In this document: in pieces, positions 1 to 19,934 of the stretch
Numbering within the stretch: position 1 is the first letter of the stretch
How the letters are laid out: each line of letters begins with the position of its first letter
IMG/VR virus record: IMGVR_UViG_3300032516_002236
Location: 1-21,725 of that record
Origin: a virus
Direction: 5' to 3' (one strand)
DNA length: 21,725 nt
Position numbers and translations under genes: made by a program
The notes under the pieces: generated by a model
The model's input: only the letters and a program-made list of their open reading frames with translations
What the model was told of the DNA's origin: nothing
Databases searched by the model: none

Positions 1-1095
1 ACCGGAGCGGACACCAAACAGACCGCTGGCGCCGTAGTACAGGCGCCGCCCATAGACGAACATGTTGCCGATGGAAGTGGACTTGCCGGTCCTTCCCCAT
101 CGCTTCAGTTCAGTGACCGCCGCTCCGGTGAACTGGTAGAGGACGCCGAAGCCGATGCCGGTCGTGTCAGTCCATTCGTAGGTCCCAACAAACAGCTTCC
201 CATCATATGAACGAAGACTGACACCAGACGTTTGTCCGTCCCACGACCAGATGTCGAAGGTGTTATTTCCATCAGTACGGTGCAGGTGACCATTCTGGGA
301 GAGGAAGTAGAGGAACCCAAGGTGGGTCTCCATGGCAACAATGTAGTTAGAACCCGAGTTCTGATTCACCTTGTAGAAGACAGTCGAGCCATCCCAAGTC
401 TGGTTGTCCTTCTGGCGCCAGACCTGAGTGTTGTAGGCAACATACAACTTGGAGTTGTACACCTTCATGTATGTTACGCCAACAGTATCGATGCCAGCGG
501 GATTGGTCACCGTATTCCAAGTGCCGGGGGTGGTCGCCCAGTACAGACGGGCGACATCGGTGCCCTGAGTCTGCACGCCGCCAACATACAGCTTGCCATC
601 GAAGGTAGTAATGGCGCGGGCAAGGAAGGAAGTTCCCGGCATGGTAACGCTCGTCCATGCCTCCGTACCAGCGTTATAGGAGTAGAGCCGAGAGTCGCCG
701 GTATCGCCGGGTGAGTCACGGCAGACAAGGACATAGAGAACATTCTTGTAGACGCAGAACTTGTGATAGACAACCTCGGTCGAGCCACCAAGATTCCAGT
801 TCGCGCCAGCGCCACGCTTCAGGTAGCGGGAGAGCGTGAACTTCTCATGGACAGTAGTGTCAACACCAACAGCGTCCTTGAACATCGCGTCGTCCACCCA
901 ATCGTCAGCACCCATGCCGCCGACCCAACACTTCTGGACCCAATGCTGCCAGATGGACAGGTTGTTGTAGTCAGGGTCACCAGTCGTAATGCGGGCGCCG
1001 AAGGTAGGCGCAGCAGACTTCTGATACGAGTTCGGACGAATGATGAGGAACTCGTTCCCCAGTTTGAGGTGGTGGGTGGTGCCAACCGCAGGCAC
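1..1095 (-). CDS. Tail protein with beta-propeller-like repeats (5' part, runs off left edge)
   Basis: The minus strand is open from GTG at 1095 to the window edge, giving 365 codons with no stop, so the C-terminus is missing. The start is well supported: AGGAG lies 6 bases upstream, overlapping the end of the connector gene, which stops 2 bases before. The protein shows at least five blade-like repeats of roughly 40-50 residues, each built around a hydrophobic strand of the type (D)GKLYVG: FDGKLYVGG, YNSKLYVAYN, HLGFLYFLS, YDGKLFVGT, YGRRLYYGAS, with an earlier YKNVLYVLV. Aromatic and Trp-rich strands lie between them. This pattern is typical of Kelch-like or other beta-propeller folds. Its place directly after the head-tail connector suggests a tail hub, nozzle or receptor-binding protein. 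The propeller call rests on repeats seen by eye and the tail role on gene order. Confidence 0.8.
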   Translation of the reverse strand, partial: MPAVGTTHHLKLGNEFLIIRPNSYQKSAAPTFGARITTGDPDYNNLSIWQHWVQKCWVGGMGADDWVDDAMFKDAVGVDTTVHEKFTLSRYLKRGAGANWNLGGSTEVVYHKFCVYKNVLYVLVCRDSPGDTGDSRLYSYNAGTEAWTSVTMPGTSFLARAITTFDGKLYVGGVQTQGTDVARLYWATTPGTWNTVTNPAGIDTVGVTYMKVYNSKLYVAYNTQVWRQKDNQTWDGSTVFYKVNQNSGSNYIVAMETHLGFLYFLSQNGHLHRTDGNNTFDIWSWDGQTSGVSLRSYDGKLFVGTYEWTDTTGIGFGVLYQFTGAAVTELKRWGRTGKSTSIGNMFVYGRRLYYGASGLFGVRSG

Positions 1096-1097
1096 GA

Positions 1098-1745
1098 CTA
1101 GCTCCTAGAGACGGGGAACGGCATCTGCAGGCGGTCGAGAAGCAACTCGAATTGGGCGAACCAGAACTGCGAGACCTGCATGATGTCATTCGGGTCTACG
1201 CTGCCATTGACCTGCGTAGCGGAATACCGCGTGTAGTCCATCCTGTCATCGAGGACACGGGCCGTAGCGAGCCCCATAGCATAGAGAATCGGGAGTTCCT
1301 CAGTACCAGCGGGGCCGGAGAAAGTAACGGACTGAGAAGCCGTATAGTTCGCGGCAACGAAGGGGTCCAACCTGTTCGCAACAGTAATGCGAACGCGGGA
1401 ACCAGAAGCCGAGGGGAGAGCAGTGTCAAGCAGCACAAGGATAGGGGCTGTCAGGGAGGGGATAATGTCGTAGCGGGTCAATGGCAGGAACCGGCCAGAC
1501 GCGACGCCAGACTCCACTTCCACAGTCAGAACCTTACCGGCACCAACATTCGCGGGGAGGGTGTATTCAAAGTCATTGGTAGCAAGAGTGATAGTCAAAT
1601 CCTGCGAGAGCTTGAACACGCGCGGGAACATAGCGGCTTGCCCACGATTAAGGAAGCGAAGCTTGGTAGCAAAGGGAACCTGCGTATCGGCGGCGTCATT
1701 GAGCCGGTCCCGAAGGTCGTCAATCATATCGCCAGCACTAGACAT
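1098..1745 (-). CDS. Head-tail connector / adaptor protein
   Basis: This 215-aa protein starts at ATG 1745, with AGGAG 6 bases upstream; the TAG stop of the upstream gene overlaps that ribosome site. The N-terminus (MIDDLRDRLNDAADTQV, then KLRFLNRGQAAMFPRVF) is a helical pair like that of phage adaptor or head-completion proteins that bind under the portal ring. The middle is strand-rich (LTITLATNDFEYTLPANV, VRITVANRLDPFVAANY) and the C-terminus is helical again (FWFAQFELLLDRLQMPF). Size, helix-strand-helix order and position after the capsid genes and before a tail gene all fit a connector. Presumed role: it docks on the portal after packaging and forms the tail attachment site. No catalytic motif is expected or seen. 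It could instead be a tail tubular protein A-like component, which has a similar size and position in podoviruses. Confidence 0.7.
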   Translation of the reverse strand: MSSAGDMIDDLRDRLNDAADTQVPFATKLRFLNRGQAAMFPRVFKLSQDLTITLATNDFEYTLPANVGAGKVLTVEVESGVASGRFLPLTRYDIIPSLTAPILVLLDTALPSASGSRVRITVANRLDPFVAANYTASQSVTFSGPAGTEELPILYAMGLATARVLDDRMDYTRYSATQVNGSVDPNDIMQVSQFWFAQFELLLDRLQMPFPVSRS

Positions 1746-2141: not shown

Positions 2142-2143
2142 CC

Positions 2144-2398: not shown

Positions 2399-2421
2399 GA
2401 GAGTCCTTTCTCAGATGCGAT

Positions 2422-2450: not shown

Positions 2451-2456
2451 CACCGA

Positions 2457-2954: not shown

Positions 2955-2975
2955 AATAGTTTACCTTTCTGTTAT

Positions 2976-3001: not shown

Positions 3002-3020
3002 GCTAATATCAGTCGCCGGT

Positions 3021-3947
3021 CTAGGCGCTGACAGCACTCTCATAACGAACCATGAAGGCATCGTTGAGAATCTTGGCCGTGAAGGCAACCTTCCAGCCCA
3101 TGGACTGCTGCTGGTCAACCGGGTCAGCGGTACCAGCGGAGCCGAGCGGCTTGAAGTAGGTCTTCAGCGAGTGTCCGTCGAGGTTGACGATGCCGTAGGC
3201 ATTCGCCCCGAAGAACAAGGACGCATACACGTCGATGCCTGCGGCGCCAGCGCCCGTGAACACCTTCGCCTTGTCGGTCACCCAGAACTTGACGCCATAC
3301 AGTTCGCCGAGGGACCCGTCGAACTGCCGCCCGCTCTGGGCGTACTGGTTGGCCGTCACCCACTCAGCGGTGCCCTGAAGGTCGAAGGAAACACGCGGAG
3401 AGACGATGGCCTGATAGAACCCACCGATGCGCTTCGCGCGGTTCACGACGAGCGTCCGGACAACCTTGCGGAGGTCGGCGACCGTAAAGAGGTCCGTGTT
3501 AGCAACGGTGACGCGCGACGTGCGCGCTGCGGCATAGACGATGGTCGTACCGGCGACGATGATGTCGCGGACGATTTCGTCAATGGTCTCACCGGCCTCA
3601 ATCGCGAGGAGTTGAGTCGTCTCGGTGAGGATGGGGTCGATGGTCGTGGTCGAAACGAGGTCGGTGAACCCAACCGCGTCGCCGTACTGCGAGATAGTCG
3701 CAGTGATGGCGCTGATGGCGATGTCCTTCAGCGTCGGGGGGACACCCTCAGTCAGAGGAGTCGTGGCCGTGGCGAGTAGCGACAGGCGTCGGAACTCAAC
3801 GGTCTTACCCGAACCCATGGGGATATTGCGCGTCTGCGCGAAGTTGGCGTGGAGGAGCGTGGGTACAGTGTATTCGAGAAGAACACGGTCATAGAACGTC
3901 TTCATCTCGACGCTGAGGCCGGTACTCGCAGTCGTCTGGAGAGCCAT
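3021..3947 (-). CDS. Major capsid protein, N4 gp56 family
   Basis: This 308-aa protein starts at ATG 3947, with AAGGG about 8 bases upstream. The N-terminus follows the N4 gp56-type capsid pattern: LSVEMKTFYDRVLLEYTVPT, a GKTVEFRR strand, then ATTPLTEGVPP at about residues 60-71 and ISQYGDAVGF at about 85-94. Further on, LTETTQLLAIEAGETIDEIV and the long helix-loop region IDEIVRDIIVAGTTIVYAAA match the spine helix region expected of an HK97-like shell protein, and the length is within the family range. It is the shell subunit that polymerises with the scaffold encoded just upstream. No prohead protease gene or N-terminal delta domain is visible, consistent with a family that assembles on a separate scaffold. 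This is one of the most secure calls in the window. Confidence 0.93.
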   Translation of the reverse strand: MALQTTASTGLSVEMKTFYDRVLLEYTVPTLLHANFAQTRNIPMGSGKTVEFRRLSLLATATTPLTEGVPPTLKDIAISAITATISQYGDAVGFTDLVSTTTIDPILTETTQLLAIEAGETIDEIVRDIIVAGTTIVYAAARTSRVTVANTDLFTVADLRKVVRTLVVNRAKRIGGFYQAIVSPRVSFDLQGTAEWVTANQYAQSGRQFDGSLGELYGVKFWVTDKAKVFTGAGAAGIDVYASLFFGANAYGIVNLDGHSLKTYFKPLGSAGTADPVDQQQSMGWKVAFTAKILNDAFMVRYESAVSA

Positions 3948-4827: not shown

Positions 4828-7800
4828 TTATCCGATAGAGTGCAACCGAACCCATGCAGCCGAGTGGCCAGTGTGGCTACCGGTCCAGCGAGTTACGCCA
4901 TGTCCACGCTGCCGGGTATGGTCGCTCAAAATAGGCTTTGGGGGAGCCTTCTCGTGCTTTAGTTCCTCGGCATAGGAGGCAAGGACAGCCTTCATCCACT
5001 TCTCAAACGCAGGAGTCATGTCGGGATGCTCGACAAGGAAGCTAGCCACCTTCCTGATAGAAGCATCACCAGCAGCCTGCTTCGAGAAGACCTCGGGATA
5101 CTTCTCACGGAAGACGCGCCGGAGCCACTGGTCTTCCTGCGGAAGGCCCTGATAGGCGGCGAGAATCATCATGCGACGGGTGCTGGACTTCGAGCCCTGA
5201 GCCTTCAGCCACTTCGCGAACAACGGATTGTCGATGAGATACTGCGCACGATTGGCGTCATCGGCGGCAAAGTACTGCCCAAGCTGCCCAACGCGCTTGA
5301 TGTCGCTACGTAGCTTTGCGTCAGGATGCTTCGCATAGTAGCGGTCTTTGAAGGCTTGTGGCAGAGAATCGAAGTAAGTCTTCGCTCCATCCTTGTCGCC
5401 ATCCTGAAGCAACTTAACCCACTTGCCCATGGCCTTCGCATAAGGGGAGGTACCGCCGCCGCCCTTGCCAAAGCCATTCGGGTTCTTGGCGAAGTATCGG
5501 TCCTTGACCCACTGGGGCATCTTCTCGAAGAAGTTAGCGCCGCCCATGTAGTCACGATGCTTGTAGAAACTCGTCCACTTCTCCATGAAGTTCATGTACT
5601 GGAGATTCTCCTGCAACTTCTGGCGCTTCTCGGGGTGCTTCGAGTAGTAGCGAGCCTTCACCCAGTCGGGGAGGTTGTCGAAGTAGCGCCCAGCCTCAGT
5701 GAACTTACCAGCCTTGGCAAGGAGGCCATACTTGCTGATGGCCTTGATATAGGCATCATTGGTAGCCCACTTCTCACGCTTGCCGGGGTTGCGCCGGAAG
5801 TACTCGCCGAGAAGGTCGGGATGCTTCTTCAATTCATTGACGAACGTCGCACCAAAATTGTCGCTAGCCTTGGCCTTGGCGATGATGTCCTTCATGCCCA
5901 GACCGTACTTCTGGTCTCGGGCAAACTTCTGCTTCTCGCCAACCGACATACGGTCAAAGCGCCACTGATTGAAGTCGGGGAGCACCTTCAGACGGGTGAG
6001 GAATGGCTGCCCGCTGGGGTCGGTCTTCACCTGAGGCGAACGGCCACGCTCCTTATCGAAAGCAGTCAGCGCCTTATAGTCGGAATCATCGAAATAGAAG
6101 ACCATCTCATCTGCTCCAAGCTTGGAATAGTCAAGCTCGTTTGCAAGGTACAACTGGTCAAGAAGGTCGTAGTCCTTGGCCTGCTTCGCGGCCTCGATGG
6201 CGATGGAGCGAGTGCCAACGCGGTCGAGGGTGTCGAACCAATCCTGCTCCGTGGCCTTCCAAACCGCCTCAACTGAGTCACGGGACTGGCCGAGCCGCTC
6301 AGCGACCTGCGGGAACGACTTCAGGTAATTCGCGCGCTTCTGCTTCCATAGAAGAACCGCAGCCTGCCAATCAACAGCCGACTTGAAGTCGATGCGCTTG
6401 GGGGCCACACCAATATCGAAGAAGGACTGCACGAGGTCATCGACCGTCCAATCATCCAACTGCTTCGCCCACTCAGCGGGAGTCATAGAACCAAATTGAT
6501 AGTCAATCATCCACGGATGCTCGACGTAATACTGGTACCGCTGGGTCGAGCGCTCCAGCTTGGCATTGGCGTATTCCGCCGTGCCGGGGGTGAATGAGTC
6601 AATCCTCACGTCCCACGCGGCGCGCATGTTCTTCAAGTCCTCGAAGCCCTGCTTGATTTTGGTCTGAATCTCAGGAGTCTGGGAATGCAACCACGCCTGC
6701 GAATCCACGGAGGGCGGATTAAGGATGTCCTTGATTTCCTTGGGCGTGAACCAGTCCTTAGTGGCGCCAGCCCTGTCGGCCCACCACGCCTGAAGGTTCT
6801 TACCATCGGCAGTCAGCAGCCACGCCTCGGCGGCGGCGGGGTCACTCTTCTTCAGGGCAAAGAAGAAGTTGGAAAGGCCAGCACCTTGGTCGTACTGCTT
6901 CAACCCACCGAAGAAAAACGTCTTGTAGAAGAACTGAGTGGTATCAGTGACATTCCACTTATTCTCCATCGCCTTCAGCAACGCAGCGCCATCCTCGACA
7001 AACCAAAGCGAATTCCAGAGGTTAGCCGCCCCGCCCCAAGGAGCCTCCCAAGGAGCAGAGACTTGCTCCCACCTGCCAGTAGGGAAGCCATCGGCATCGA
7101 TAATCTGCTTCCATTCCTTGCGTTGAGCGAGGTTGAAGGAATTGAGGATACCGCTCACGATGTTCTGGTCGTTGGGGCCAACAAGACGGACAAAGTTCGC
7201 GGCCATCTGCTCCAACTGGACCTTACCATCGAGTGCCTGATAGAGCGGCTTCAGTCCACGCTGAGCATCAGAGAACTGGCCAAGGTCAATGAACATACCC
7301 GGTGCCCACGGAAGCTCGATAAGACGCATCAACTTGGGGTCGGGGGGCTCAGACTCATCGTGGGTGTCGTACCAATGGTCGTAGTTATACCTCTCAATGA
7401 CATCGCCGATATGGCGGAAGCTGTTATAGAGCGAAGGGTGTCCGATGAACTCCCCGATGAAGATGACGTGGTTCTTGAACTGGTAGGAGAGGAAGGGTGA
7501 CAGCGAGTTGAATAGACGCTCGATAGGGCCGTCACCAACGGTCGGCCAGAGACGCGAGACCTCCTTACCGACAAACTCACGGGCGATGACATCGGCGAGG
7601 TCGGGGTCACCGACCTTCTTCAGAGCCCGCTCGTAGGCACCGTCAAACATGCCCTGCGCAAGGCGAAGCTTGGTGAAGTCCTCAGCCATGCCAGCGCCCT
7701 GAGCGGGGAGTTCCGTCACACCCTGCAACTGGCGAAGGAGAGATTCGGAACCACGGATACGAGAAGTGCCATGCAGGGGCACATCACGGAGAAACTGACC

Positions 7801-10800
7801 CCCGAACTCCAGACCGAAGTGCTCCAGCGTCAACTCCATGGCCCTCTCGCTCGCGGGGCCATTGTGGAAGGAACGGGTGATGAACTTGGTCCAAGGACCC
7901 TTGATGGCTGTGTCGATAACGTTCGTGGTCATAAATCCAAGTTGAGTGAAGACCAAAGAGCGCCGAAGAGCAGCCTGAATCCTGATACCCTTACCAAGAT
8001 AGTCAATGTTTCGCTTCAACCACACAGGGTCAGACAGAAGGTCGTGAGTAATATTGCTCGCGACGGTGAGCAAATCAGCGTAAGTCATCGTCTTGCCAGC
8101 CATCGCGGCATTGACATACTTCCCCATGTGCTTATCGATGAGGGCGTGGAGCACGTCCAGTTCTGCGGAAGACTGAACCAAATCCTCGGCAATCGGAAGG
8201 CCAGCCTTAGTGCGAGCAATCATGTAGGCAGCGTATTCATCTTTGTGCATAAGCCACGGGAAGGCTTTAAGGTCACCAGAGATAACGCGTCCGTCCGGGC
8301 CGTAGACAATATTGTCCGCAGCGATGTCGCCGTATCTCTCCATGACATACCTACGCTCCATGGGAAGGTCGCGCTTCGGGTTCAACCCAAGCCCGGGGTC
8401 TCCCTCGGCAAGGGCCCTAGCCATCCGCTCACGGGTCCAGCCCTTGGTCTTGATACGGGCCTCGAAATTCCGGTTGAAGAGCCCCCACTGGCGGTTCATC
8501 TCGCCGAAGAACTTCTCGTCATGAATCATCCGGTTAAGAGCACCAACCGGCTTAATGAGTTCGGGGTTTGCCCAATCCGGAGCGAAGCCCCAGTTATCAA
8601 CGTAGTATTTGTACTCATCTTCGAGTCTCCACGACTTCTTGCCAGCCTCGATAGCCTGCGCCGTACGAGGGCTCCAGAAACCATACTCCGTCAGCCACTC
8701 GCGCATAGCAGCACGGTTATCGAACGGAGGGCGCGTGCCGTGGCGTCCAAGTCCCTCGATAATCTGGGCCGGGTCATTGATATCGGTAATACCCATGTGG
8801 GTCTTAATGGCGTTTTCCAACGTGAGCTTCTGGTAGGGGGTAATCGGCCCCGGCTCAAAGTCCTTGACGTTCTGGTCAAGACCCCAACGCTTCTCAAACT
8901 CAGTGATGATGTCCTCAGCCTTGGAGCCCAACATCTCGCCGCCAGCGAGGAATTCGAGTTGCCTCAGGGCCTCTTTATCAGACATCTCCTGTCGGACCTC
9001 GATGAACGCCTTGTCACGTTCCTTCTTGTACAACTTGTCCCAATCCTTCGAGTCAACGGTCTTGCCCGCCTTGTAAAGGACATCAGTAGCACGCTTGGCG
9101 GCTTCGGCGGCGATAGCCTGCCCGCGACGCATCCGGTTCATCGGAGTGCGTAGGACCTTGCGGGCCTCGTTATAAGCGTGGACATCAACCCCCAGCGACC
9201 TGAGGGCCTTGGTCTTACCAACGACAGCACGAATATCGGTCTCGACCAGTTCCATGAGCGGGTCTTCGCCATGAGTACCGGGCCGTTGACGAGCGTCAAC
9301 AGACAGTTGCCGTACAGCGCCCTCGCGGGCATCGATGATAGCGGCCTCCACGATACGGTCATGCTTCTCGTAATCGAGGGCATCGTAGAAGTCGCTACGG
9401 TGAACGAGTCGGTCATCCAACCACCGCTCGATACCATAATCAGACCCCGCGCCGGCTATAGACCTCAGTTCAAGTTCAGCCTTGACGGCGATGGCGCTCA
9501 TCATGTCACTGAACTTGCGGATTCTCAGGGCACTCTTCATCTCGTCCACGCCGAGAAGCAAATCGCCAAGGGTGATGTCATCAAGGAGGTGCTCGGGGAA
9601 GCCAAACTGACGGAGCCATGAGCCCTTGATAGGCGTATCCATGTACGCCTCCATCGCAGGACCATGGGCCTTGTAGACGGCAGAGACCTCGCCGGGAACG
9701 CGCGCATTACTCAGACTAGAATCAACGGGAGCGTTCCTCCAGAGTCGGTAGAGCGACCGGGCCTGTTCGGTACGAGCAGCGGCGGCATTCGGGAGGAAGG
9801 GGGAGATGGACTTCGGGCTGAAGATAGCGATGGCGCGGGCGCCAACAACACTGCGGATAGTGGACTGGAAGGTAGCCTTCGCCTTCGGCGGGATGAAACT
9901 CTTCTTGCCACCAGACTTCATAACCTCGATGACCTTCAGGGCCTTCTCGGCATTCTGGGCGCGCTTGATGGCAGCATTACGAACATTCCGGTCGATAGCC
10001 ATATCGCGAGCACGACGGGCGCGAATGAGTTCACGGTGCAGCCACTCCTCCTCGCTCATGGCATTGAGAAGCTCCAGAGCACGCTGGGAGACAGAGACAC
10101 GAGGGCTGTGTAGTTCCTCCATGGTCGGAGCGATGGGGGGTTCGGCCCTAACGGCGCCACCACTCTCGGGAGTCCCGCCAGAAGCGGCGGCAACATTGTC
10201 GGCCTGAGAGCCGGCGACATCGCCCTCGGCCATCTTCCGCTCGATGGAACCGTCAACGCCAGTCAGGCCATCGCGCTTGGCAACCGCAGCATCACGCTCA
10301 GCGGTAATACGGTCCAACTCAGCCGAAGCCACATCCATACGAGCGGTCAAACTGGCGCGTTCTTCGGCATCAATAGCGTGTTCCTCGGCACCCTTCCCGC
10401 GAACGCCGTCGCGAAGGGACTGAGCGAAACCAACAACCTTATTGCGAGCTTGAGTGATTTGACGCTCCAGAACAACGATGTCGGAGGTCGCGGCTTGCTC
10501 CACAGCCCTTACGTCAAACCACTCCTTATGCTCAAAGAAATGGATAAGGTGAGAAGCAAAAAGGTCATTCCGGAAGGTCTTCGCCCATTCATTGACCCAA
10601 GCCTGCCCCTCGGGGAAATCCTTGAAGTGGGCAACCACTTCCTCAATCTGCTTGCCGACATCAGTCGGGATAGCATCCATGTGGAGCAAGTCGCGGACGA
10701 TGCGATTCATCGCAGTCGTGAGTTCGAGCATGGCAATCTCACGCCGAACCTTTACGAGGGCATGAGCTTGCTGGGCCTCGGGCAACTTCTTCAAGAAGGC

Positions 10801-13800
10801 AGAGGCAGCAGCGTATCCACTCTTGCGAAGAATCCGACGGTACTCTTTGGCGGCAGCATCAACGGCAACCTTCGGGGCGGTCACGCCGCCATCAGCAAGG
10901 TCTTGGGTCTCCTTCGTAACGTTCCTCAGAACCTCAACGAAGTGACCGACGCGCTCAGTAACCGAAGAAAGGTCAGCATTGTCATACAGGTGGAGGGTCT
11001 CGCGGGCACGAAGCGCGGGGTCCGCAGAGTCGGCAAGGAGGAACTCGTCGCGCATCGCAGCGTCCTGCACCTCGGTCTCGGCGAAGGACTTCTCGACGCG
11101 CACGCGGGCACGGCCCTCGGCAATAGCGCGCTCAACGTCCGCCTTGGAAATCAACTTGGCACGGGTAAGGAAGTCAACCACGGCACCGCGACGGACACCG
11201 CCGAAGGAGGCATCAACAGACTTGCCGAGGTCAGTAAGGCCCTCGTACATCATGCTGGTCGAGCGGGCAATCTCATGCTCGAACACGGTCTTCAGGACGA
11301 CGCGGGCCTCTTCCTCCGCACCAGCGCCAACCATGTGGTCAAAGTAGGATTGGGCGAAGCGAACCCAGTCATCGCCCCGCTGGTACTTGGGATGCTGCAT
11401 CATCTCGAAGAACTTCATCGTGTGTAGACCGGGGTTATCGTGTGTGATTTGAGGGCCGACCCAATGGCTCCGCCCACCCCCGCCTTCGTAGTGTCCCCAG
11501 TACAACTCCTCGAAGGCATCATGAAGTTCGGGGAAAGTGCGACGCCGAAGGGGGTTGATGTTTACGTTCTGGAGGGGACGCTCTCGGAGCTTTCCATCGC
11601 GGAACATGTTTTCGAATGACTGCGACCACTCAGCAAGCGCATGCTCGTCGGGCTCCAATCTAGCCGTCGCCCTACGGTACGCAAAGTAACGCAAACGAAG
11701 TTCCTGAATCGGGTAAGAGGCTAGACCATGCTTGCGCCAAGCAGCCTCGATGGAGAAATCCTGCGAGATACCAAGGAAATGGGCGCGCCGGGTGACATCA
11801 CCGTAGTTAGTGGCGATGTAATGGATAACCTGCGAAGCAAGAGTGATACCGTCATTAATCTTATCGGGAGCATTCACAATCTTCGTGAGAGCGACAGTAA
11901 CGGAGTCATCCACCCACTTAGCGGGGGACATCTTAAAGAGGGGATTCAGGGTTGTCGCCAGCGCCGAAAGGTGGTTCAGGAAACCATGGGATGTGGGCAG
12001 AATACGAGCAATCGGACCATAGGGAATCATCGCCAAAGCAAGATTGGGGTGGAGTGTCTTGCCAAGCATGGCGTAGTGGACAAAGGCATCCTCAGATTGG
12101 ATGAACCCATCAGCCCAGTCGAGGTCGGCACGCGTCTCCATGACCTTCCACATGCGCCCGAAGATATTGTCAGGCTGCTCAGCGAGAAGGGCCTCGATTG
12201 ACTTCGAGTAAGCCTCCAGCCTTGCAAAATCACCATCGAGCAGAGTCAGGTGGAAGAGCGCGAACAGGTGGGCACCAGTCTCCCGAAACTTCATCGGGGT
12301 AACAGGGTCAAGGTTATAGAACATGGCGCGCTTCAGCATCTTGTTGAACTGACCACGGGTAAGGGCAGCACGCCACTCAGGATTCAGGATTTTGTCCATC
12401 AACGCGGTCCTGTAACCGACGCCATCCATCATCCCCGGAATCAGGGAGAAGGTCTCGTAGTAGTGGTCGAGGTGGCCAGCGGACATGAGGTCTTGGTACA
12501 GGATTTCGCCGGTCGGGATAAGCGGAGACACGGAATCGAGAATATCGTCAAGAACGCCGTGGATGGTCCCGCCAGCATTGGAAGAGATATCCTGCGAGAG
12601 ATTCGTACTGATACGGTTGACACCCATCTCGCGAACGGCAGTAATGATGTCCGCATCAAACTGCTCCTGCGTAATCTTCCCCTTGGTCAATGCCTTCTTC
12701 AAGGAGAAGGCACGCTTCTTCATGCCCTCAAAGACAGAACGCTCAGCAGTAATGAGCATCTCTTCACTGGGATTTCGAGCACCACCACGGTAGGCAAGGT
12801 CGCGAGCCTTGGCAATGTACTGCTGGAAGGACTTAGGTCCACCGCGAACGTGGAAGGACTTGGCCCTCTCGGTATCCCACGGAATCTGTCCAGCCTTCAG
12901 GGGGATGGCCTCGCCAGCGCCGGTAAAGAGACCCTCGCGAACCTGCAAGCGCTTGGCCATAGACCGACGACCGGCTTCATAGAGACCATCCTGAGCGATA
13001 CGGCGAACCTCCAAATTGGGAATCGCACCCCCGTCGCGACCGGGCTTCATAGCTTCAAGGTCAGCAATCCACCGTTTCGCCTTATCTGACGCGAGGAACG
13101 CATCGGTGTAGGAACCCGGAGCGAAGTCAACACCATGGTGCTGGACGACTTCGTGACCATCATTGACGATGGCGTTGAGGATGGACTGAGTACGGGTAAT
13201 CTCAGTCCGGTTAGTGATACGGGCGCCATCGGCGACGGCGCGGCGAATCGGGTCATCCACCTGCATTGCGAGGATAACTGGAGCAGTATGTCCAACCGTG
13301 GTGGAAGTATGGGTCACATCGGTCGCAATGGAAGCACGGGTCGGAACCACAGCAGCCGCCACATCATCGACCACGCGCGCCAACGGGGGGCGAGCGATAC
13401 GGGTCTCGATGGCGAGCCTCTCAGCGGCACGCTCGGCGGCTGCCGCATCAGTCCCCTTGCGGGCGGCAGCCTCGGCGGTCTTCGCGGCACGCATGGCAGC
13501 GGCATCGGCAGCCTTCATGGCGGCGTCGCGCACGGCATGAGCAGCCGCTTCATCAGCAACCTTCTTCGCCTCCAAATCAATGGCCTGACGAGCCATATCA
13601 TGGTAGTCAACGCCAATGGCCTTGAATTTGGACGCGACAGCCTCTTCGGCAAACGACATAATCTCGTGTCCGCTGGCGGAACGAGGGTTGATACCAAGGT
13701 CTCGGAAGAGCTTCTCAGTATCCTTGGCGCGGGACGGACCGTCAGGAATACCAGCGAGCTTACTGAGAACCATTTCGCGAATCGTCTCGGGGCGCACACC

Positions 13801-16011
13801 AGCTTCCATCAAGTGCAGGTAAGGCTTAATGGCCTTCTCAAAACGAAGTTCAGGCTCAGTAACGGTCATCCACTCACCAGCAGCGAGGGTAAGGCGCTTC
13901 AACCCGGCAACACCGGTGACCGTCTTGGTCGCGTCAATGGCGTGCTCGACGCGGGCAAGCCACGTCGTAGCCTTCAATGGAATGGCATTCGTGGGGTCAA
14001 GAGCGAAGGAAGCAATAAGATTCGCCATATCATTATTGGTAATACCGAAACCATAGGTGGAGATGGCGTCGAGCTTCGTCCAGATATCGTTATTGGAAAG
14101 GCCCTCCATAAAGGCCCTGTCCTCTTCGTAGGACTTCTTGTGGCCCGCCATACGCTGCTCGGTGAACCACTTCAGTCCGTCGGGAGTCTTCAGCCACGCT
14201 TCATACGCCTTCCGGCGAGCCACACCGCCAAAGCGCATGCCACCATTCTTCTCGGCGTCATCCAGCATGACCTTCACGGCGGGCGGGACATCCGCAGGAT
14301 TGGGTTCGGCGCCCCCGATTTTGCTGGTGTTGTCACCAACATTGTTGTAACCGGTAAAGGCCCCAGTGAAGAGATTCCCGCCAGCAAGGTTATTCCAGCG
14401 AATGAGGGTGCCGGGAAGACCACCAAGCCCACTCAGGGTCTGAGTAATAGGCTTGACGACAGGCAGACCGATAACATTCTCCAGAATGCCGGGAGCCTCC
14501 GTCCTGAAAATCCCGTAGTAGCGGTCACGAGTCGCGAGAACGGCCTTCTCATACGCCTTATAGTCCTTCTGCCCCTGCGCCCAGACAGCGCCACGACCTC
14601 CACCAGCCAGCATCTGCTTAGTGCGAGGAGTGAGAATCTCATCCCTGTGGGCGTCGGCCCACTGCTTGGTCGCAGCATCAACGACCGACTTCTGCTCCTC
14701 GCGACTAACAGGGCCCTTGTCACCCAACCCAAGGGACTTGGAAGCCGCAGCGAGTTGGTTGGCGTCAATCGCCATCTGGCGGTTATCCGGGTTGTTGGCA
14801 TCCATCCTCTGCGCACGCTGGATGGAAGCCTGCTTCGCAGCCCACTCCTGCGCGCGACGCTTCATCTCGGCGACGTATTGAGTGCGGCGGAACTGGAACT
14901 CTTCCTCTACCGTGCGATAGACGGGAACAAAGCCAGAACCGGGGCCACCGGGACCGGGCACGTAGGACTTGACGCTGGTCTTAGTGGGGTCAATCTCCGT
15001 GATGGCAAAGTCGTAGGCCAACTTGCCACCATTCTCCCACTCCTTGCGAAGCTCACGAGCAGCGGCCTCCTCGCCATGACTGAGAAGCTTATGAATCCTG
15101 CGCTGTACGTCCGCCTCAGCATTCATGTACTCGGTCTTGGCCGTCGCAAGTGTGTAATCACGCTGGGAGTTCGACAGCCCCTCAAAGTTCGGACTGAAGA
15201 CCGTCGTGATAGTGCCCTTGTTCTTCTGACCATCACCGTCGAGCCGGACATACTCGTTCTGGAGTTGGCGGAAACTCAAATCCTTCAGCATCTCCTTCGC
15301 CGCCCGCTTCGCGGATTCGCTCGTGTACCCCACGAGCTTCCCATTCTTGTCGGTCTTGTAATACGTGAGCAGCAAATCAACCTTGCGCTTATAGGCAAGC
15401 TGGACCTTCACGGCATGGTCACGGTACGCCTTGCCGAGTTCATCCACAAAGGCTTGGTCAAAGTCGGTATTGCCACTGGCCTTCTGGCGAGCGCGGGCCT
15501 GAGTGACAAGGCGTTCGAGGGTCGTGCCAGCAGCCTTCGTGCCGATATTCTTCTTGGCAACATCGAGTGCGGCACGGTCGGCAGCCTTGCGCTGCTGAAT
15601 CTTCTGGAAGTCAGCGTACGCCTTGTATTGCGCTTGGCCAGCGGCGTAACGCTGCTTTACAAGCTCAGCAGCTTTGGCCTTGTCAATAATGGCCGCACGC
15701 TCAACGGGGTCATTGGTGAGCTTGGCAATCCGGGCAGGGGAAATCGACGTGCCCTGCGTGGGTGGAGCGATAGAATTACGGACATCGTTGCTGCGCTTGT
15801 GAAGGGACTCCCACAAGCGGCGGCGAGCTAACGACTTGGCGGCGACGGCAGCCTTGGCCTTATCGGCAGCCGCCTTCGCCGCCCGCTGCTCGTCGCGGTC
15901 GTTGTTGATTACTGGAGCCTTAGCGCCACTGGGTTCTACCCAGACCCGCCGAGTGGCGGGAATTCGCCTAGCCCCAACAATCCGAACGTAGGACTGTAAG
16001 ACCCACGGCAT
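4828..16011 (-). CDS. Giant virion-associated protein (3727 aa), probable internal/ejection protein
   Basis: This single uninterrupted frame of 3727 codons starts at ATG 16011, 3 bases after the portal stop, with no good ribosome site. Seen by eye: a Lys/Ala-rich coiled N-terminus (about residues 37-140), a hydrophobic stretch near 504-540 (IGLPVVKPITQTLSGLGGLP), an Ala-rich helix near 790-877, another hydrophobic stretch near 1324-1369 (ALAMIPYGPIARILP), a coiled coil near 1884-1916, and a Gly/Ser/Pro linker near 1930-1965. A segment near 2681-2710 (RRSLVFTQLGFMTTNVIDTA) and another near 2827-2857 (LFNSLSPFLSYQFKNHVIFI) resemble parts of the large polyvalent phage proteins. The C-terminus has repeats. 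Order between portal and capsid genes, size and hydrophobic segments suggest a protein carried in the head and ejected with DNA. No protease, lysozyme or polymerase motif was found. From memory, some Microbacterium podoviruses carry a similarly outsized gene; this was not checked. Confidence 0.85.
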   Translation of the reverse strand: MPWVLQSYVRIVGARRIPATRRVWVEPSGAKAPVINNDRDEQRAAKAAADKAKAAVAAKSLARRRLWESLHKRSNDVRNSIAPPTQGTSISPARIAKLTNDPVERAAIIDKAKAAELVKQRYAAGQAQYKAYADFQKIQQRKAADRAALDVAKKNIGTKAAGTTLERLVTQARARQKASGNTDFDQAFVDELGKAYRDHAVKVQLAYKRKVDLLLTYYKTDKNGKLVGYTSESAKRAAKEMLKDLSFRQLQNEYVRLDGDGQKNKGTITTVFSPNFEGLSNSQRDYTLATAKTEYMNAEADVQRRIHKLLSHGEEAAARELRKEWENGGKLAYDFAITEIDPTKTSVKSYVPGPGGPGSGFVPVYRTVEEEFQFRRTQYVAEMKRRAQEWAAKQASIQRAQRMDANNPDNRQMAIDANQLAAASKSLGLGDKGPVSREEQKSVVDAATKQWADAHRDEILTPRTKQMLAGGGRGAVWAQGQKDYKAYEKAVLATRDRYYGIFRTEAPGILENVIGLPVVKPITQTLSGLGGLPGTLIRWNNLAGGNLFTGAFTGYNNVGDNTSKIGGAEPNPADVPPAVKVMLDDAEKNGGMRFGGVARRKAYEAWLKTPDGLKWFTEQRMAGHKKSYEEDRAFMEGLSNNDIWTKLDAISTYGFGITNNDMANLIASFALDPTNAIPLKATTWLARVEHAIDATKTVTGVAGLKRLTLAAGEWMTVTEPELRFEKAIKPYLHLMEAGVRPETIREMVLSKLAGIPDGPSRAKDTEKLFRDLGINPRSASGHEIMSFAEEAVASKFKAIGVDYHDMARQAIDLEAKKVADEAAAHAVRDAAMKAADAAAMRAAKTAEAAARKGTDAAAAERAAERLAIETRIARPPLARVVDDVAAAVVPTRASIATDVTHTSTTVGHTAPVILAMQVDDPIRRAVADGARITNRTEITRTQSILNAIVNDGHEVVQHHGVDFAPGSYTDAFLASDKAKRWIADLEAMKPGRDGGAIPNLEVRRIAQDGLYEAGRRSMAKRLQVREGLFTGAGEAIPLKAGQIPWDTERAKSFHVRGGPKSFQQYIAKARDLAYRGGARNPSEEMLITAERSVFEGMKKRAFSLKKALTKGKITQEQFDADIITAVREMGVNRISTNLSQDISSNAGGTIHGVLDDILDSVSPLIPTGEILYQDLMSAGHLDHYYETFSLIPGMMDGVGYRTALMDKILNPEWRAALTRGQFNKMLKRAMFYNLDPVTPMKFRETGAHLFALFHLTLLDGDFARLEAYSKSIEALLAEQPDNIFGRMWKVMETRADLDWADGFIQSEDAFVHYAMLGKTLHPNLALAMIPYGPIARILPTSHGFLNHLSALATTLNPLFKMSPAKWVDDSVTVALTKIVNAPDKINDGITLASQVIHYIATNYGDVTRRAHFLGISQDFSIEAAWRKHGLASYPIQELRLRYFAYRRATARLEPDEHALAEWSQSFENMFRDGKLRERPLQNVNINPLRRRTFPELHDAFEELYWGHYEGGGGRSHWVGPQITHDNPGLHTMKFFEMMQHPKYQRGDDWVRFAQSYFDHMVGAGAEEEARVVLKTVFEHEIARSTSMMYEGLTDLGKSVDASFGGVRRGAVVDFLTRAKLISKADVERAIAEGRARVRVEKSFAETEVQDAAMRDEFLLADSADPALRARETLHLYDNADLSSVTERVGHFVEVLRNVTKETQDLADGGVTAPKVAVDAAAKEYRRILRKSGYAAASAFLKKLPEAQQAHALVKVRREIAMLELTTAMNRIVRDLLHMDAIPTDVGKQIEEVVAHFKDFPEGQAWVNEWAKTFRNDLFASHLIHFFEHKEWFDVRAVEQAATSDIVVLERQITQARNKVVGFAQSLRDGVRGKGAEEHAIDAEERASLTARMDVASAELDRITAERDAAVAKRDGLTGVDGSIERKMAEGDVAGSQADNVAAASGGTPESGGAVRAEPPIAPTMEELHSPRVSVSQRALELLNAMSEEEWLHRELIRARRARDMAIDRNVRNAAIKRAQNAEKALKVIEVMKSGGKKSFIPPKAKATFQSTIRSVVGARAIAIFSPKSISPFLPNAAAARTEQARSLYRLWRNAPVDSSLSNARVPGEVSAVYKAHGPAMEAYMDTPIKGSWLRQFGFPEHLLDDITLGDLLLGVDEMKSALRIRKFSDMMSAIAVKAELELRSIAGAGSDYGIERWLDDRLVHRSDFYDALDYEKHDRIVEAAIIDAREGAVRQLSVDARQRPGTHGEDPLMELVETDIRAVVGKTKALRSLGVDVHAYNEARKVLRTPMNRMRRGQAIAAEAAKRATDVLYKAGKTVDSKDWDKLYKKERDKAFIEVRQEMSDKEALRQLEFLAGGEMLGSKAEDIITEFEKRWGLDQNVKDFEPGPITPYQKLTLENAIKTHMGITDINDPAQIIEGLGRHGTRPPFDNRAAMREWLTEYGFWSPRTAQAIEAGKKSWRLEDEYKYYVDNWGFAPDWANPELIKPVGALNRMIHDEKFFGEMNRQWGLFNRNFEARIKTKGWTRERMARALAEGDPGLGLNPKRDLPMERRYVMERYGDIAADNIVYGPDGRVISGDLKAFPWLMHKDEYAAYMIARTKAGLPIAEDLVQSSAELDVLHALIDKHMGKYVNAAMAGKTMTYADLLTVASNITHDLLSDPVWLKRNIDYLGKGIRIQAALRRSLVFTQLGFMTTNVIDTAIKGPWTKFITRSFHNGPASERAMELTLEHFGLEFGGQFLRDVPLHGTSRIRGSESLLRQLQGVTELPAQGAGMAEDFTKLRLAQGMFDGAYERALKKVGDPDLADVIAREFVGKEVSRLWPTVGDGPIERLFNSLSPFLSYQFKNHVIFIGEFIGHPSLYNSFRHIGDVIERYNYDHWYDTHDESEPPDPKLMRLIELPWAPGMFIDLGQFSDAQRGLKPLYQALDGKVQLEQMAANFVRLVGPNDQNIVSGILNSFNLAQRKEWKQIIDADGFPTGRWEQVSAPWEAPWGGAANLWNSLWFVEDGAALLKAMENKWNVTDTTQFFYKTFFFGGLKQYDQGAGLSNFFFALKKSDPAAAEAWLLTADGKNLQAWWADRAGATKDWFTPKEIKDILNPPSVDSQAWLHSQTPEIQTKIKQGFEDLKNMRAAWDVRIDSFTPGTAEYANAKLERSTQRYQYYVEHPWMIDYQFGSMTPAEWAKQLDDWTVDDLVQSFFDIGVAPKRIDFKSAVDWQAAVLLWKQKRANYLKSFPQVAERLGQSRDSVEAVWKATEQDWFDTLDRVGTRSIAIEAAKQAKDYDLLDQLYLANELDYSKLGADEMVFYFDDSDYKALTAFDKERGRSPQVKTDPSGQPFLTRLKVLPDFNQWRFDRMSVGEKQKFARDQKYGLGMKDIIAKAKASDNFGATFVNELKKHPDLLGEYFRRNPGKREKWATNDAYIKAISKYGLLAKAGKFTEAGRYFDNLPDWVKARYYSKHPEKRQKLQENLQYMNFMEKWTSFYKHRDYMGGANFFEKMPQWVKDRYFAKNPNGFGKGGGGTSPYAKAMGKWVKLLQDGDKDGAKTYFDSLPQAFKDRYYAKHPDAKLRSDIKRVGQLGQYFAADDANRAQYLIDNPLFAKWLKAQGSKSSTRRMMILAAYQGLPQEDQWLRRVFREKYPEVFSKQAAGDASIRKVASFLVEHPDMTPAFEKWMKAVLASYAEELKHEKAPPKPILSDHTRQRGHGVTRWTGSHTGHSAAWVRLHSIG
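5317..5904 (-). repeat. Tandem protein repeats at the C-terminus of the giant protein
   Basis: Three clear 42-aa units lie at 5626-5751, 5473-5598 and 5317-5442, in protein order. They are separated by a 9-residue linker (RQKLQENLQ) and a 10-residue Gly-rich linker (FGKGGGGTSP). Each ends with a shared block: YFDNLPDWVKARYYSKHP, FFEKMPQWVKDRYFAKNP, YFDSLPQAFKDRYYAKHP. A weaker earlier unit covers about 5779-5904 (KHPDLLGEYFRRNPGK), and degenerate ones follow nearer the C-terminus. Each unit looks like two helices joined by the conserved block. Likely a binding or oligomerisation region. Confidence 0.8.
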
Positions 16012-16014
16012 CAG

Positions 16015-17706
16015 TTACGCCGGGGGCTGAGTGGGAATCTGTGCCGCACTTCCCGCAGCAGCCAGCGAGTCAGTCATCGCTTGGTCCTGACCCGGAGGTG
16101 CGCCCATGCCGGGAGGAGCATATGCGTCAGCAGCGTTGAGTCCGGTACCGGGAACCTGAGCCCCCTGAAGCGCGGTCACCGCATTCGTAGCAGCAGTCAT
16201 CCGGTCAGGATGGAAGCGGGGGTCCTCCAACTGAAGGCCGATGCGGTCAATCTCAGCCTCGACATCCTCGACGCCCATCTCTTCGAGATAGGTGTAGAGG
16301 CTGATGGCCGGGAACGGCTGCGCCTGCAACTGCTGGAGATGATTCTGTACGTACACCGGGTCGTCAGTCCTGACGGCGCTTGGCCACTTGATGCGGTTCT
16401 TGTACCAACCACCGATGTCCTTGCCAGTAATGGCAACGTCATAGATTCGGTTCGAACCGGAGTCGGTCTGGTAGTTCCCGTTAAACTCGATTTGGTCGCC
16501 AGACATGAACTCTTCCCAGAGCATGAGCGTGTACTTGTTGAGACAGGCAAGCGCCTCGCCCCAGATGGACTCGTGGGCCTCATTGCTCTGGAGCGTCGGA
16601 TTCAGCGAGAGGTTCGTCTGGATGCCCGACTGGTTGGTCATCGTCTGGCCGAAAGAGGCGCGAGGCTTCCCGGCGAGGTCGAAGATGATGTCCTGCACGA
16701 GGGTAATCTGCTCGTCAATGGCCGGAACGGTGCCCTGCCAGTTCAACAGGGCAATATTCCCGTCCCGCCTAACAGGGATAACTGCTCCCTGCGCAGCCAC
16801 AGCGCGGCGGATATCCTCCGGGCTCTGACCTGAGTTGAAGTCGAGGATAGTCGGATTCGCGTAGCGGCTGATGATGTCAGCCTTCTGGCTGATGAGTTGG
16901 TCGAGATACTGGTTCAGTTCGACCACTTGGTCAATGAGGTTGAGCGGCTCGGCCAACCCGCCCACGGGATAGCAGGGGAACTCAACGAACGGCAGAGCCT
17001 TGAACGGGTACTTCAGGTTCTGACTCTTGACGGCATTGCCCATAACCCGCGTGTGGTTGCCGTCGATATCGAAGACATCGATGATAGTCGTCTCGTCGGG
17101 CGAGGAGAAACGCGCAGGGTCATCGGAAGTCGTAGGACCAAAATCAGCCTGAGAGTCGGGGATGATGTCCTCCGCAAAATCCGGGTACTCCTTCTTCAGG
17201 CGGTCGGTCGAGCGGCGGGACACATAAACGCAGCGCCAGATATCGTCGCCGTCGTACTCGGGGAAGAAGTGGTCGGGTGTGACATTCTTGTAGCGGACCA
17301 ACTTCTTCCTCGGGTCCCACCAGAGGTAGATAATGCCGCGACGAAGGACAAACGAGTCCCACGCGGTCTTGAAGAGAATCTTCGACATCTCATTGGCTTC
17401 CCACGTCCCGTAAAGGACGCCTTCCAGCGACTCCGCGTGTCGGCGGGCCACTTCGTCTGTGGCAGAAGGCATCACTTGCAGGGCAGGAACACGTCCGACG
17501 AGGCTCTGAACACTCTTGTCCACGATAGGCTTCAGATAATTGGCAGTCAGCGAATAGCGGTTCGCGGGCTCAGGGTTGGTAACAGAGTCCCAGTGCTTAC
17601 CGTTATAACGCTCGCGAGCCGTGTCATACTGACCATTACGTGCGGCCCACAACGCGCGGAGCTTGCGGAAGATGTCCACGGCATCCTTGCGGTCCATCTC
17701 AGCCAT
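16015..17706 (-). CDS. Portal protein
   Basis: This 563-aa protein starts at ATG 17706, which overlaps the large terminase stop (TAATG); GGAGG lies inside the terminase end as its ribosome site. The N-terminus has the helical, basic portal start (RKLRALWAARNGQYDTARER, followed by YNGKHWD), then YLKPIVDKSVQSLVGRVPAL and a strand-rich wing containing YLWWDPRKKLVRYKNVTPDH and FFPEYDGDD, typical of SPP1/P22-type portals. The central stem helix is LIDQVVELNQYLDQLISQKA. The last 50 residues are Gly/Pro/Ala/Gln-rich and probably disordered. It forms the dodecameric ring at one head vertex, binds the terminase during packaging, and later holds the connector. Its place directly after the terminase is the standard order. 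Confidence 0.92.
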   Translation of the reverse strand: MAEMDRKDAVDIFRKLRALWAARNGQYDTARERYNGKHWDSVTNPEPANRYSLTANYLKPIVDKSVQSLVGRVPALQVMPSATDEVARRHAESLEGVLYGTWEANEMSKILFKTAWDSFVLRRGIIYLWWDPRKKLVRYKNVTPDHFFPEYDGDDIWRCVYVSRRSTDRLKKEYPDFAEDIIPDSQADFGPTTSDDPARFSSPDETTIIDVFDIDGNHTRVMGNAVKSQNLKYPFKALPFVEFPCYPVGGLAEPLNLIDQVVELNQYLDQLISQKADIISRYANPTILDFNSGQSPEDIRRAVAAQGAVIPVRRDGNIALLNWQGTVPAIDEQITLVQDIIFDLAGKPRASFGQTMTNQSGIQTNLSLNPTLQSNEAHESIWGEALACLNKYTLMLWEEFMSGDQIEFNGNYQTDSGSNRIYDVAITGKDIGGWYKNRIKWPSAVRTDDPVYVQNHLQQLQAQPFPAISLYTYLEEMGVEDVEAEIDRIGLQLEDPRFHPDRMTAATNAVTALQGAQVPGTGLNAADAYAPPGMGAPPGQDQAMTDSLAAAGSAAQIPTQPPA

Positions 17707-19247
17707 TAGCGCCCTCCAAGGATTTCACCAGTCGCCCCGATGGGGAGCCGGTACGTTTCGATTTGCTCTGTCTTAGCGGCCTGTGCGGACGCGGCTTCCT
17801 GCTTTTCGGTCCAGAACATGCCACCGAGCACTGGGGCTGCGATGCCTTCCATCTCACGAGCGAGGTCGGTCACGAGCGCGAGGGACATTACGGAGTCCGT
17901 AAACGGGATGTTCTTGTCATCAAGCGAGTAAATCCCCATCTCGTCCATTAACTGGCTAATACAGGGTAGCCGGAGCAAACCCCAGTTACCCTCGTTGGGT
18001 TCCTCTAATACAGGATGACGGATAACAACGCCGTTGTCATCTATCGTCTCGGATTCGCCCACAACCTGCCGGTTTTCGTCAAGTGCAGATTGCAGGCCGT
18101 TGATGATGTCGAGCTTCGCGGCACGGGTACTCGTCTTGAACGGGTCCACCTTAATACCCCGTTTTGTCATCTCTTCTTCGATGACATCACCCTGTGGACC
18201 TGTCGCATCGATGCGGGCCGTCTTACAGTGATACAGCTTCGTCACGCGGTCGATAGTCGCATAGATTTCCTCCCACGCGACCTTGTTGAGCCGTGTGTAG
18301 TGAACCATCGTCCACGGACGCTTGGTTACATCAAGGACGATGCCGACCGTGAAGTCCGTCTGCCGCCCGAGGTCGAAGGCAACGATGTACTTGTGGCCCT
18401 CGATGTAGTCAGAGTACTGCGGGAGGTCGGGGTCGAAGGCATTGTCGCGCTGGTCGCGAGTAAAAGCGAGCCCAGAGAAGTCAACGAACTCACCTTCCAA
18501 GACCTGCCGTCGAATCTTGGGGTCCGCAGACTGGAGCAGTCGGTCTCGCATTTCAATGTCTTCACGCGGAAGGTACGGATTGTCGTAGATGGACCCACGC
18601 TGCGAGTAGTATCCCGATGTGCCACGCTGCCCCCTCTCGTAATAGAAGTACAGGTCGTTATATCCTTTTGGCGTTCCGATAAGGTCAATCTCACCGCCGC
18701 CAGCCAAACGCATGACGATGACGTTGGTCATCAATTGTTTCAGTTTAGGAATCCAGCCAGCCTCGTCAATGCTGAGATACCGATAGGCGTGGCCGTCGAT
18801 GTATTTCCCGTCATCATGTGCAGACCTGCAATGGAAGACGGCGCCATTGGCGAAGATGATGTGCGGGAAGGGAGTCGAGCGCATCGCCTTGACGAGCACC
18901 TTCAGGGGGCTGTCAGCGAGAAGCTTCTTCGCTTCCTTGAAGACGATGGCCGCTTGGTCCGCAGACATGGCGACCGAGATAGTCTCGTATTCGGCTGCCT
19001 TCCACTCTGCCTGCGTCTTCACATTCAGGCCGTGCTTGAAGACGCACTTCCAGATGTGCTTCTCGGCGATGATGGTGGACTTCCCCCAGCGGTTGCCGGG
19101 AACGAGCGTGTTGATGGGGTGGACGCTGCTCTCCAGCCAAAGGCGCTGCCCCGGATGCGGCTTCTTGGGGAGAAACGTATCCGCGAAGAGGTTCGGGTCT
19201 GTCGCGCATCGCCTCCACAGTTCCCTAGCCTTCGGGGTCATCGTCAT
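17706..19247 (-). CDS. terL: Terminase large subunit (packaging ATPase-nuclease)
   Basis: This 513-aa protein starts at ATG 19247; TTG 19250 and ATG 19241 are alternatives, and no strong ribosome site decides. The ATPase half has a Walker A loop, PGNRWGKST, near residues 50-58, a Walker B strand YLSIDEAGW with its Asp-Glu pair near 161-162, and the coupling motif LIGTPKG near 189-195. The nuclease half has the RNase H-like acidic residues: Asp in VAFDLGRQTD near 292, Asp in ARIDATGPQGD near 347, and Asp in FTDSVMSLAL near 451. All key residues are present, so it should be active. It cuts concatemeric DNA and drives it through the portal. The gene overlaps the small terminase by 23 bases and the portal start by one base. 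Confidence 0.96.
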   Translation of the reverse strand: MTMTPKARELWRRCATDPNLFADTFLPKKPHPGQRLWLESSVHPINTLVPGNRWGKSTIIAEKHIWKCVFKHGLNVKTQAEWKAAEYETISVAMSADQAAIVFKEAKKLLADSPLKVLVKAMRSTPFPHIIFANGAVFHCRSAHDDGKYIDGHAYRYLSIDEAGWIPKLKQLMTNVIVMRLAGGGEIDLIGTPKGYNDLYFYYERGQRGTSGYYSQRGSIYDNPYLPREDIEMRDRLLQSADPKIRRQVLEGEFVDFSGLAFTRDQRDNAFDPDLPQYSDYIEGHKYIVAFDLGRQTDFTVGIVLDVTKRPWTMVHYTRLNKVAWEEIYATIDRVTKLYHCKTARIDATGPQGDVIEEEMTKRGIKVDPFKTSTRAAKLDIINGLQSALDENRQVVGESETIDDNGVVIRHPVLEEPNEGNWGLLRLPCISQLMDEMGIYSLDDKNIPFTDSVMSLALVTDLAREMEGIAAPVLGGMFWTEKQEAASAQAAKTEQIETYRLPIGATGEILGGR

Positions 19248-19746
19248 CAACCAATTGCGCGGATGTTTCGTCTACCGTTCCATTCGCGGGGTCGCCAGCA
19301 TACTCTTTGGTGTCCTGCTCGCCCGAAGTAGATGAATCCGTATCGTTGGAGCCAAGGGAAGCCGAAGCAAGCGTATCGAGCAGTTCATCGAACGGATTGC
19401 CCTGCGTCAGGCGGAAATGCATGTCGAGGGCCTTCATCGTGTCAGAGATAGTCGGCTTCCAGTTCTTCCTGTTCGCGAAGCCCTTCTGGATGATTTCTTC
19501 GAGAATCTCGATGTTGGACGCCTTGGCAACGGCATCCTCCGCCACAGCAGACCCGTGGACCGAAATATGCCTCCGATGGAGGCTTAGGGTCTGGAGGGCG
19601 ATTTTGACACCCTCGGCAGCCGCAGCCGCCTGAATCTTCCGAAACGGAACATTCTCCAGCAACATCACGGTCGCCTTGGCTCCCCATGGCGTGCCCTCCC
19701 GCATCGAGCACTGCGGCCCGCACTCCAAATGATACTCAGGGACCAC
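19225..19746 (-). CDS. terS: Probable terminase small subunit
   Basis: The product is 173 aa from GTG 19746, which shares one base with the upstream stop (TAGTG). A TTG at 19779 would add 11 residues and overlap the upstream gene; neither start has a good ribosome site. Residues about 30-65 (LLENVPFRKIQAAAAAEGVK, then IALQTLSLHRRHI) look like a helix-turn-helix. A helical middle follows (SNIEILEEIIQKGFANRKNW), and the C-terminus is acidic and Ser/Thr/Gly-rich, ending in DDDDPEG. A DNA-binding N-terminus, oligomerising helices and an acidic tail next to the large subunit is the usual small-terminase layout. It would recognise the packaging site and load the large subunit. The family was not recognised directly; the call rests on architecture and neighbour. 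Confidence 0.72.
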   Translation of the reverse strand: MVPEYHLECGPQCSMREGTPWGAKATVMLLENVPFRKIQAAAAAEGVKIALQTLSLHRRHISVHGSAVAEDAVAKASNIEILEEIIQKGFANRKNWKPTISDTMKALDMHFRLTQGNPFDELLDTLASASLGSNDTDSSTSGEQDTKEYAGDPANGTVDETSAQLVDDDDPEG

Positions 19747-19934
19747 TATAGTATCGCCGGGAACCCTGCAGTTTGCCAATCAGCGTAGCTCGTCGCAAGC
19801 CAATCCGGCTTCAGGGCATTCAACTCAGTCTCCTGCCGAGTCTGGGCCGGGGCATCGACCGCATCCACGGCAGCCTTCCGCTTACGCATGGCGACGCGCA
19901 CAACAGCAAGAACACTCGATTCTACCCAAGCCAT
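19746..19934 (-). CDS. Small protein of unknown function before terminase
   Basis: This 62-aa protein starts at ATG 19934 with a good ribosome site (AGGAGA, 4 bases before the start). The N-terminus is hydrophobic then basic (MAWVESSVLAVVRVAMRKRK), the middle is Ala/Asp/Gln-rich, and the C-terminus is aromatic (KPDWLATSYADWQTAGFPAI). The hydrophobic stretch is too short and mixed to call a membrane segment. The stop shares one base with the GTG of the small terminase, so translation of the two is probably coupled. No family is recognised. It might assist DNA recognition or packaging, but that is position only. Confidence 0.65.
   Translation of the reverse strand: MAWVESSVLAVVRVAMRKRKAAVDAVDAPAQTRQETELNALKPDWLATSYADWQTAGFPAIL

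Follow-up and report, generated by a model that had tools for sequence, protein, structure and literature searches.

An uninterrupted frame of 3,727 codons between the portal and capsid genes was noted in a first-pass annotation of a stretch of viral DNA (an IMG/VR record of 21,725 bp without end repeats, here referred to as the window), and its product was regarded as possibly a polyprotein-like virion component that enters the cell together with the DNA. Whether this frame represents a genuine gene, and which role such a giant protein may have, is the question addressed here.

The giant gene is conserved between portal and scaffold

The frame was confirmed at exactly the coordinates given before (Table 1). 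It starts with an ATG a few bases downstream of the portal stop codon and contains no internal stop, compared to 101 and 226 stops in the other two sense frames beneath it. On the minus strand, it is preceded by genes for a probable small terminase subunit, the large terminase subunit (TerL) and the portal, and followed by those for a probable scaffold, the major capsid protein (MCP), three small proteins, an SU10-type adaptor and a nozzle-like protein whose gene is cut by the window edge. The presence of the SU10-type adaptor indicates a short tail.

Relatives were sought from the capsid (25 loci found) and from the portal (5 loci found). The order TerL-portal-giant-scaffold-MCP-adaptor-nozzle is conserved, and the giant lies between portal and scaffold in every relative with both flanks present. 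The proteins encoded in this slot comprise 4,345 aa in G008, about 4,294 aa in G002 (which has a near-duplicate record) and about 3,935 aa in G001, and are shorter in G004 (about 3,412 aa), G005 (about 2,730 aa, in a frame that continues over the joined ends of a record with a terminal repeat of 123 bp) and G003 (2,748 aa or more). Partial copies occur downstream of the portal in L027, L028, L082, L083, L090, L094 and L097, of which those in L028, L083 and L097 are assigned by position only and have no BLAST match to the window giant, and C-terminal pieces are found upstream of the scaffold in L009 and L012. In G004, the gene order is changed, as giant and scaffold are separated by a gene (L041:15406-15876) homologous to that of the 165-aa protein in the window.

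As uninterrupted homologous frames occupy the same slot in independent contigs (at least six other IMG/VR contigs), an assembly artefact, which had been named earlier as a possible source of the frame, is excluded. In addition, divergence at first, second and third codon positions amounted to 0.45, 0.40 and 0.60 between the giants of the window and G008, and to 0.33, 0.26 and 0.58 between those of G003 and G005. The third positions thus diverge more than the first and second, indicating that the frame is translated and under selection. The giant gene is real and conserved. No match for the giants of the window or G004 was obtained by tblastn against INPHARED phages, and no hosts or prophages were found in GTDB genomes with the C-terminal alignment of the giant and TerL as queries. 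The group represents a short-tailed phage known solely from metagenomes.

Table 1. Position of genes and protein regions in the window and, in the last row, in locus L045
Feature	Position	Strand	Basis or remarks
Probable terminase small subunit	19225..19779	-	Position, conserved in relatives; no Pfam match
Terminase large subunit	17706..19250	-	Pfam/PHROG scans
Portal protein	16015..17706	-	SPP1_portal / P22_portal; directly upstream of giant
Giant ORF	4828..16011	-	3,727 aa, ~418 kDa, pI ~9.0, 0 Cys; proposed giant ejection protein
Giant, N-terminal part, residues 1-900	13312..16011	-	Moderately conserved in all relatives
Giant, variable central part, residues ~901-1950	10162..13311	-	Largely absent in G003 and G005, enlarged in G008
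Giant, conserved all-helical core, residues 1940-2620	8152..10194	-	AlphaFold2 mean pLDDT 72, pTM 0.65
Giant, most widely conserved block, residues 2560-3130	6622..8334	-	Many invariant W, P, G, N, D
Giant, three ~50-aa helical repeats, residues ~3405-3580	5272..5799	-	LPxWVKxRYxxKHP
Probable scaffold, 202 aa	3967..4575	-	Position; directly downstream of giant
Major capsid protein	3021..3947	-	phrog_1357
SU10-type adaptor	1098..1745	-	Short-tailed-phage marker
Probable nozzle	1..1095	-	Kelch-like in one relative; cut by window edge
~206-aa and ~469-aa low-Cys genes after nozzle	L045:8185-8802 and 9342-10748		Candidate partner ejection proteins

Organization of the giant protein

The first 900 residues of the giant contain a short conserved N-terminal motif (WV.D/EP) and an alanine/charged-rich stretch, and the region from residue ~1950 to 3727 is conserved in all family members. 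The model of residues 2540-3727 is mainly helical, but poor (pLDDT 55) and unfit for a fold call. The C-terminal repeats described before proved to be real, with three copies in the window giant and two to three pattern matches in relatives, where their number varies. The hydrophobic segments reported alongside them turned out to be weak: no segment of the window giant reached transmembrane strength, the best 19-residue Kyte-Doolittle mean being 1.17 at a threshold of 1.6. By the same measure, T7 gp16, N4 gp51 and T7 gp15 likewise remain below the transmembrane threshold.

The giant of G003 (L008) carries an insert of ~130 aa (residues ~707-836) with 34% identity to a hypothetical protein that stands alone in Vibrio phage Kuja, as identified by tblastn against INPHARED phages. 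The insert belongs to no Pfam or PHROG family. The resemblance to a standalone protein suggests that the central part of the giant is able to take up additional domains. In Kuja, the counterpart of the insert adjoins the ribonucleotide reductase genes.

Pfam and PHROG scans of the window giant and 10 family members yielded no meaningful family, with isolated weak and unrelated matches in single relatives. PDB profile searches with the whole alignment and four sub-alignments gave nothing credible; the sole match under 0.01 covered 34 residues of a designed helical bundle. The profile searches proposed in the first-pass annotation have, thus, returned no convincing Pfam, PHROG or PDB match for the giant or its relatives, and the two segments that had been likened to polyvalent phage proteins lack support, as no Pfam polyvalent match occurred in the 10 family members. 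The model of the helical core gave no significant match with Foldseek and none above Z 6.4 with VIA-align, where matches span ~50 residues. Comparison of the giant family by hhalign with StenR_269, PA11 gp35, N4 gp50 and T7 gp15/16 gave no signal, and neither hhalign nor hmmsearch detected sequence similarity to the ejection proteins tested.

Cysteine is excluded from the giant protein

None of the 3,727 residues of the window giant is a cysteine, a feature that had gone unremarked before. TGY codons are absent in frame, while the two remaining sense frames contain 77 and 219. Eight members of the giant family together contain 2 cysteines in 26,821 residues, where 90 would be expected from the MCP, portal, scaffold, adaptor, nozzle and p165 proteins of the same phages (42 in 12,459 residues). 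As a control, known ejected proteins (N4 gp50, gp51 and gp52; T7 gp14, gp15 and gp16; P22 gp7, gp20 and gp16) have 1 cysteine in 7,864 residues, and 55 in 8,552 were counted in 16 structural proteins of these phages that are not ejected. The P values of these comparisons, which are only indicative because neither the residues of one protein nor related proteins are independent draws, were 5e-19 (Fisher) for the giant family versus expectation, 9e-15 for ejected versus non-ejected controls, 0.54 for the giant family versus the ejected class, i.e., indistinguishable, and 1e-31 versus the non-ejected class. Low cysteine content is a correlate, for which three model phages (N4, T7 and P22) served as calibration, and short non-ejected virion proteins of the giant-bearing phages are also free of cysteine.

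N4-like virion RNA polymerases (vRNAPs) are without cysteine, which has been explained by avoidance of disulfides during injection (PMC3915230), and the same absence has been remarked for the large proteins of StenR_269 and Zobellviridae (PMC10747016). Within the part of the literature covered, no published quantitative comparison of cysteine in ejected and non-ejected proteins was found.

A probable role as ejection protein

From its sequence and gene context, we consider it most likely that the giant is an ejection (internal virion) protein, and the largest one, of a short-tailed phage. The conserved slot, the exclusion of cysteine, the SU10 adaptor and two almost wholly helical models are in favour of this role. 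Of the earlier proposal, the part that predicted a virion component entering the cell with the DNA has gained support from the absence of cysteine, the gene neighbourhood, the short-tail context and the fast divergence. The polyprotein-like character was not borne out, and this idea was set aside, as none of the window genes near those of the capsid was recognised as encoding a protease. The giants share ~24-50% identity among relatives, compared to 55-84% for portal, TerL and MCP, and hence diverge faster than the neighbouring virion genes, as has been reported for gp16.

Ejection genes are usually, but not universally, located after the nozzle, a position that the giant gene does not occupy. 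As a rule, three proteins are ejected by short-tailed phages that infect Gram-negative hosts, which in T7/P22-like phages comprise ~180-240, 430-980 and 600-1,340 residues (PMC8954989, where fast divergence of gp16 is also reported), and N4 ejects two proteins plus the giant vRNAP (PMC12633501). In the relatives, the nozzle gene is followed by genes for a ~206-aa protein (in G008, G002, G001, G004, G003 and G005; 0-1 cysteines in the frames counted) and a ~469-aa protein (in G005, G001 and G008; no cysteine in G005), the latter with a weak PHROG match to 'virion structural protein'. Their sizes resemble those of gp14 (181-240 aa) and P22 gp20, respectively, and both may be partners of the giant. 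Immediately downstream of this pair, a further large gene low in cysteine was not seen (the next gene in G005 encodes 862 aa with 6 cysteines), and we therefore infer that the giant is the third and largest ejection protein, relocated to the portal-scaffold slot.

With regard to virion presence, ejection, topology and function as a hub, we propose that a few copies of the giant would be packed in the head near the portal and would exit through the tail, partly unfolded, before or together with the DNA. The protein would then refold across the envelope, with a large helical hub that reaches into the cytoplasm and may help genome entry, and the absence of cysteine would prevent disulfides that would block threading or periplasmic refolding. 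A comparable role in genome entry has been proposed for T7 gp16 and for those parts of N4 vRNAP that are not catalytic.

A more tentative and rather doubtful extension is that these proteins form a class of giant ejection proteins that are not polymerases and have so far escaped recognition, in which a single cysteine-free chain of up to ~4,345 residues spans the envelope alone, provides a DNA-reeling cytoplasmic hub and carries lineage-specific domains into the host by a replaceable central module. If the giant is indeed an ejection protein, the giants ejected by phages, known mainly from N4-like ones, would gain a further, separate family encoded in a new genomic slot, and giant size together with cysteine exclusion need not mean an RNA polymerase, contrary to the past annotation of such proteins. 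Cysteine exclusion in long proteins of the virion module may then serve as a simple quantitative marker for ejected proteins of uncultured phages, and the question of how chains of ~400 kDa pass a tail channel of 3-4 nm is sharpened.

Alternative functions

The size, absence of cysteine and virion-gene neighbourhood of the giant match those of N4 gp50, and would agree with an N4-kind virion RNA polymerase that transcribes early genes after injection and whose catalytic domain is too diverged to be recognised. A similar cysteine-free protein of StenR_269, a phage whose MCP is a distant relative, has been annotated as a vRNAP on such grounds, and the Pfam matches of the scanned G005 genes include no RNA polymerase family. 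However, the motif B pattern RxxxKx6-8YG/A, which hits N4 gp50 (RGIAKNPLTITIYG at 1663), was found in none of the giant-family members, neither PDB profile searches nor direct hhalign comparison linked the giant to N4 vRNAP, and its conserved polar residues form no recognisable polymerase pattern. To our knowledge, motif B is kept in all known single-subunit RNA polymerases, and a diverged polymerase would here have to lack it; we regard this function as very unlikely. The giant is also unlikely, if somewhat less so, to be a polyvalent effector carrier, that is, an injected chain whose variable central part delivers host-modifying domains. The variation in length by modules, with ~1,000 central residues missing from G003 and G005 and this part enlarged in G008, the ~130-aa stretch that the G003 giant shares with the standalone Kuja protein, and a genuine polyvalent protein with ART-PolyVal and KTSC in sister phages would be consistent with such a carrier. 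Polyvalent proteins, a class described by Iyer et al., 2017 (PMC5512222), are encoded with virion components, as is the giant, but have several effector or LPD domains per chain, whereas the window giant has no Pfam, PHROG or PDB domain, neither an HExxH nor a GxSxG motif, and a single Walker-A-like string that is not conserved.

MuF-type minor head proteins are often encoded between portal and scaffold, and the slot of the giant would therefore fit a head or neck protein that is not ejected, e.g., an internal core or assembly factor in MuF position. A MuF domain was, however, not found by Pfam, and the giants contain far less cysteine than structural proteins that are not ejected, in both their own phages and the control phages, so that we judge such a role to be quite unlikely. 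A long helical chain with repeats might also be the tape measure of a long tail, with its gene at an unusual position, and some weak BFVD matches are to tape measures. These structure matches are non-significant and originate from a low-confidence model, an SU10-type adaptor and nozzle are present instead of a long-tail context, and, owing to the central module, members of one lineage differ in length between 2,730 and 4,345 aa; a tape measure appears extremely improbable.

A second giant protein in a sister capsid lineage

A sister lineage (G006, G007, G009, G012, G013 and G014; L075-L080) has a related capsid protein (35-49% identity) and no giant of the window type between portal and capsid, but carries another giant of 2,713-4,101 aa elsewhere in the same record. 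The sister giant groups with phrog_22978, contains cysteines and an invariant HExxH-type motif and, in some members, ART-PolyVal or KTSC domains. No relationship to the window giant was detected by BLAST or hhalign; thus, the related capsid lineages use two unrelated giants.

Apart from the giants, positions 20001-40000 of G005 (L046) encode ThiF, a Prok-E2 family D protein, a weak Prok-JAB match and Prim-Pol. In ThiF, Prok-E2 and Prok-JAB, this phage possesses a set of genes of the ubiquitin-like conjugation or PRTRC-like kind.

Comparison with known systems

The polyvalent protein of the sister lineage resembles the window giant in being a giant protein of phages with a related MCP, encoded in the same record, but differs in its cysteines, its effector domains and its position outside the portal-capsid slot. 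The putative vRNAP of the Stenotrophomonas phage StenR_269 and gp35 of PA11 (Zobellviridae) are, like the giant, large and without cysteine, and are reported to be helical, and StenR_269 also carries a capsid protein related to that of the window; however, these large proteins have no sequence similarity to the giant, and their genes follow the tail genes. N4 vRNAP (gp50, Schitoviridae) is likewise a single chain of ~3,500 aa without cysteine, encoded among virion genes, and is packaged and ejected (PMC12633501). The giant differs from gp50 in lacking motif B and any detectable sequence similarity, and its gene occupies the portal-scaffold slot, whereas that of gp50 lies at the end of the ejection operon. 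Compared to gp16 of T7 and P22, the giant is about three to six times as long, has no detectable sequence similarity, lies in a different gene order, and was not found to contain a transglycosylase domain. It shares with these proteins the absence of cysteine, the fast divergence and, as proposed here, the place as largest member of the ejection set, and T7 gp16 is largely helical, as are mainly the models of the giant.
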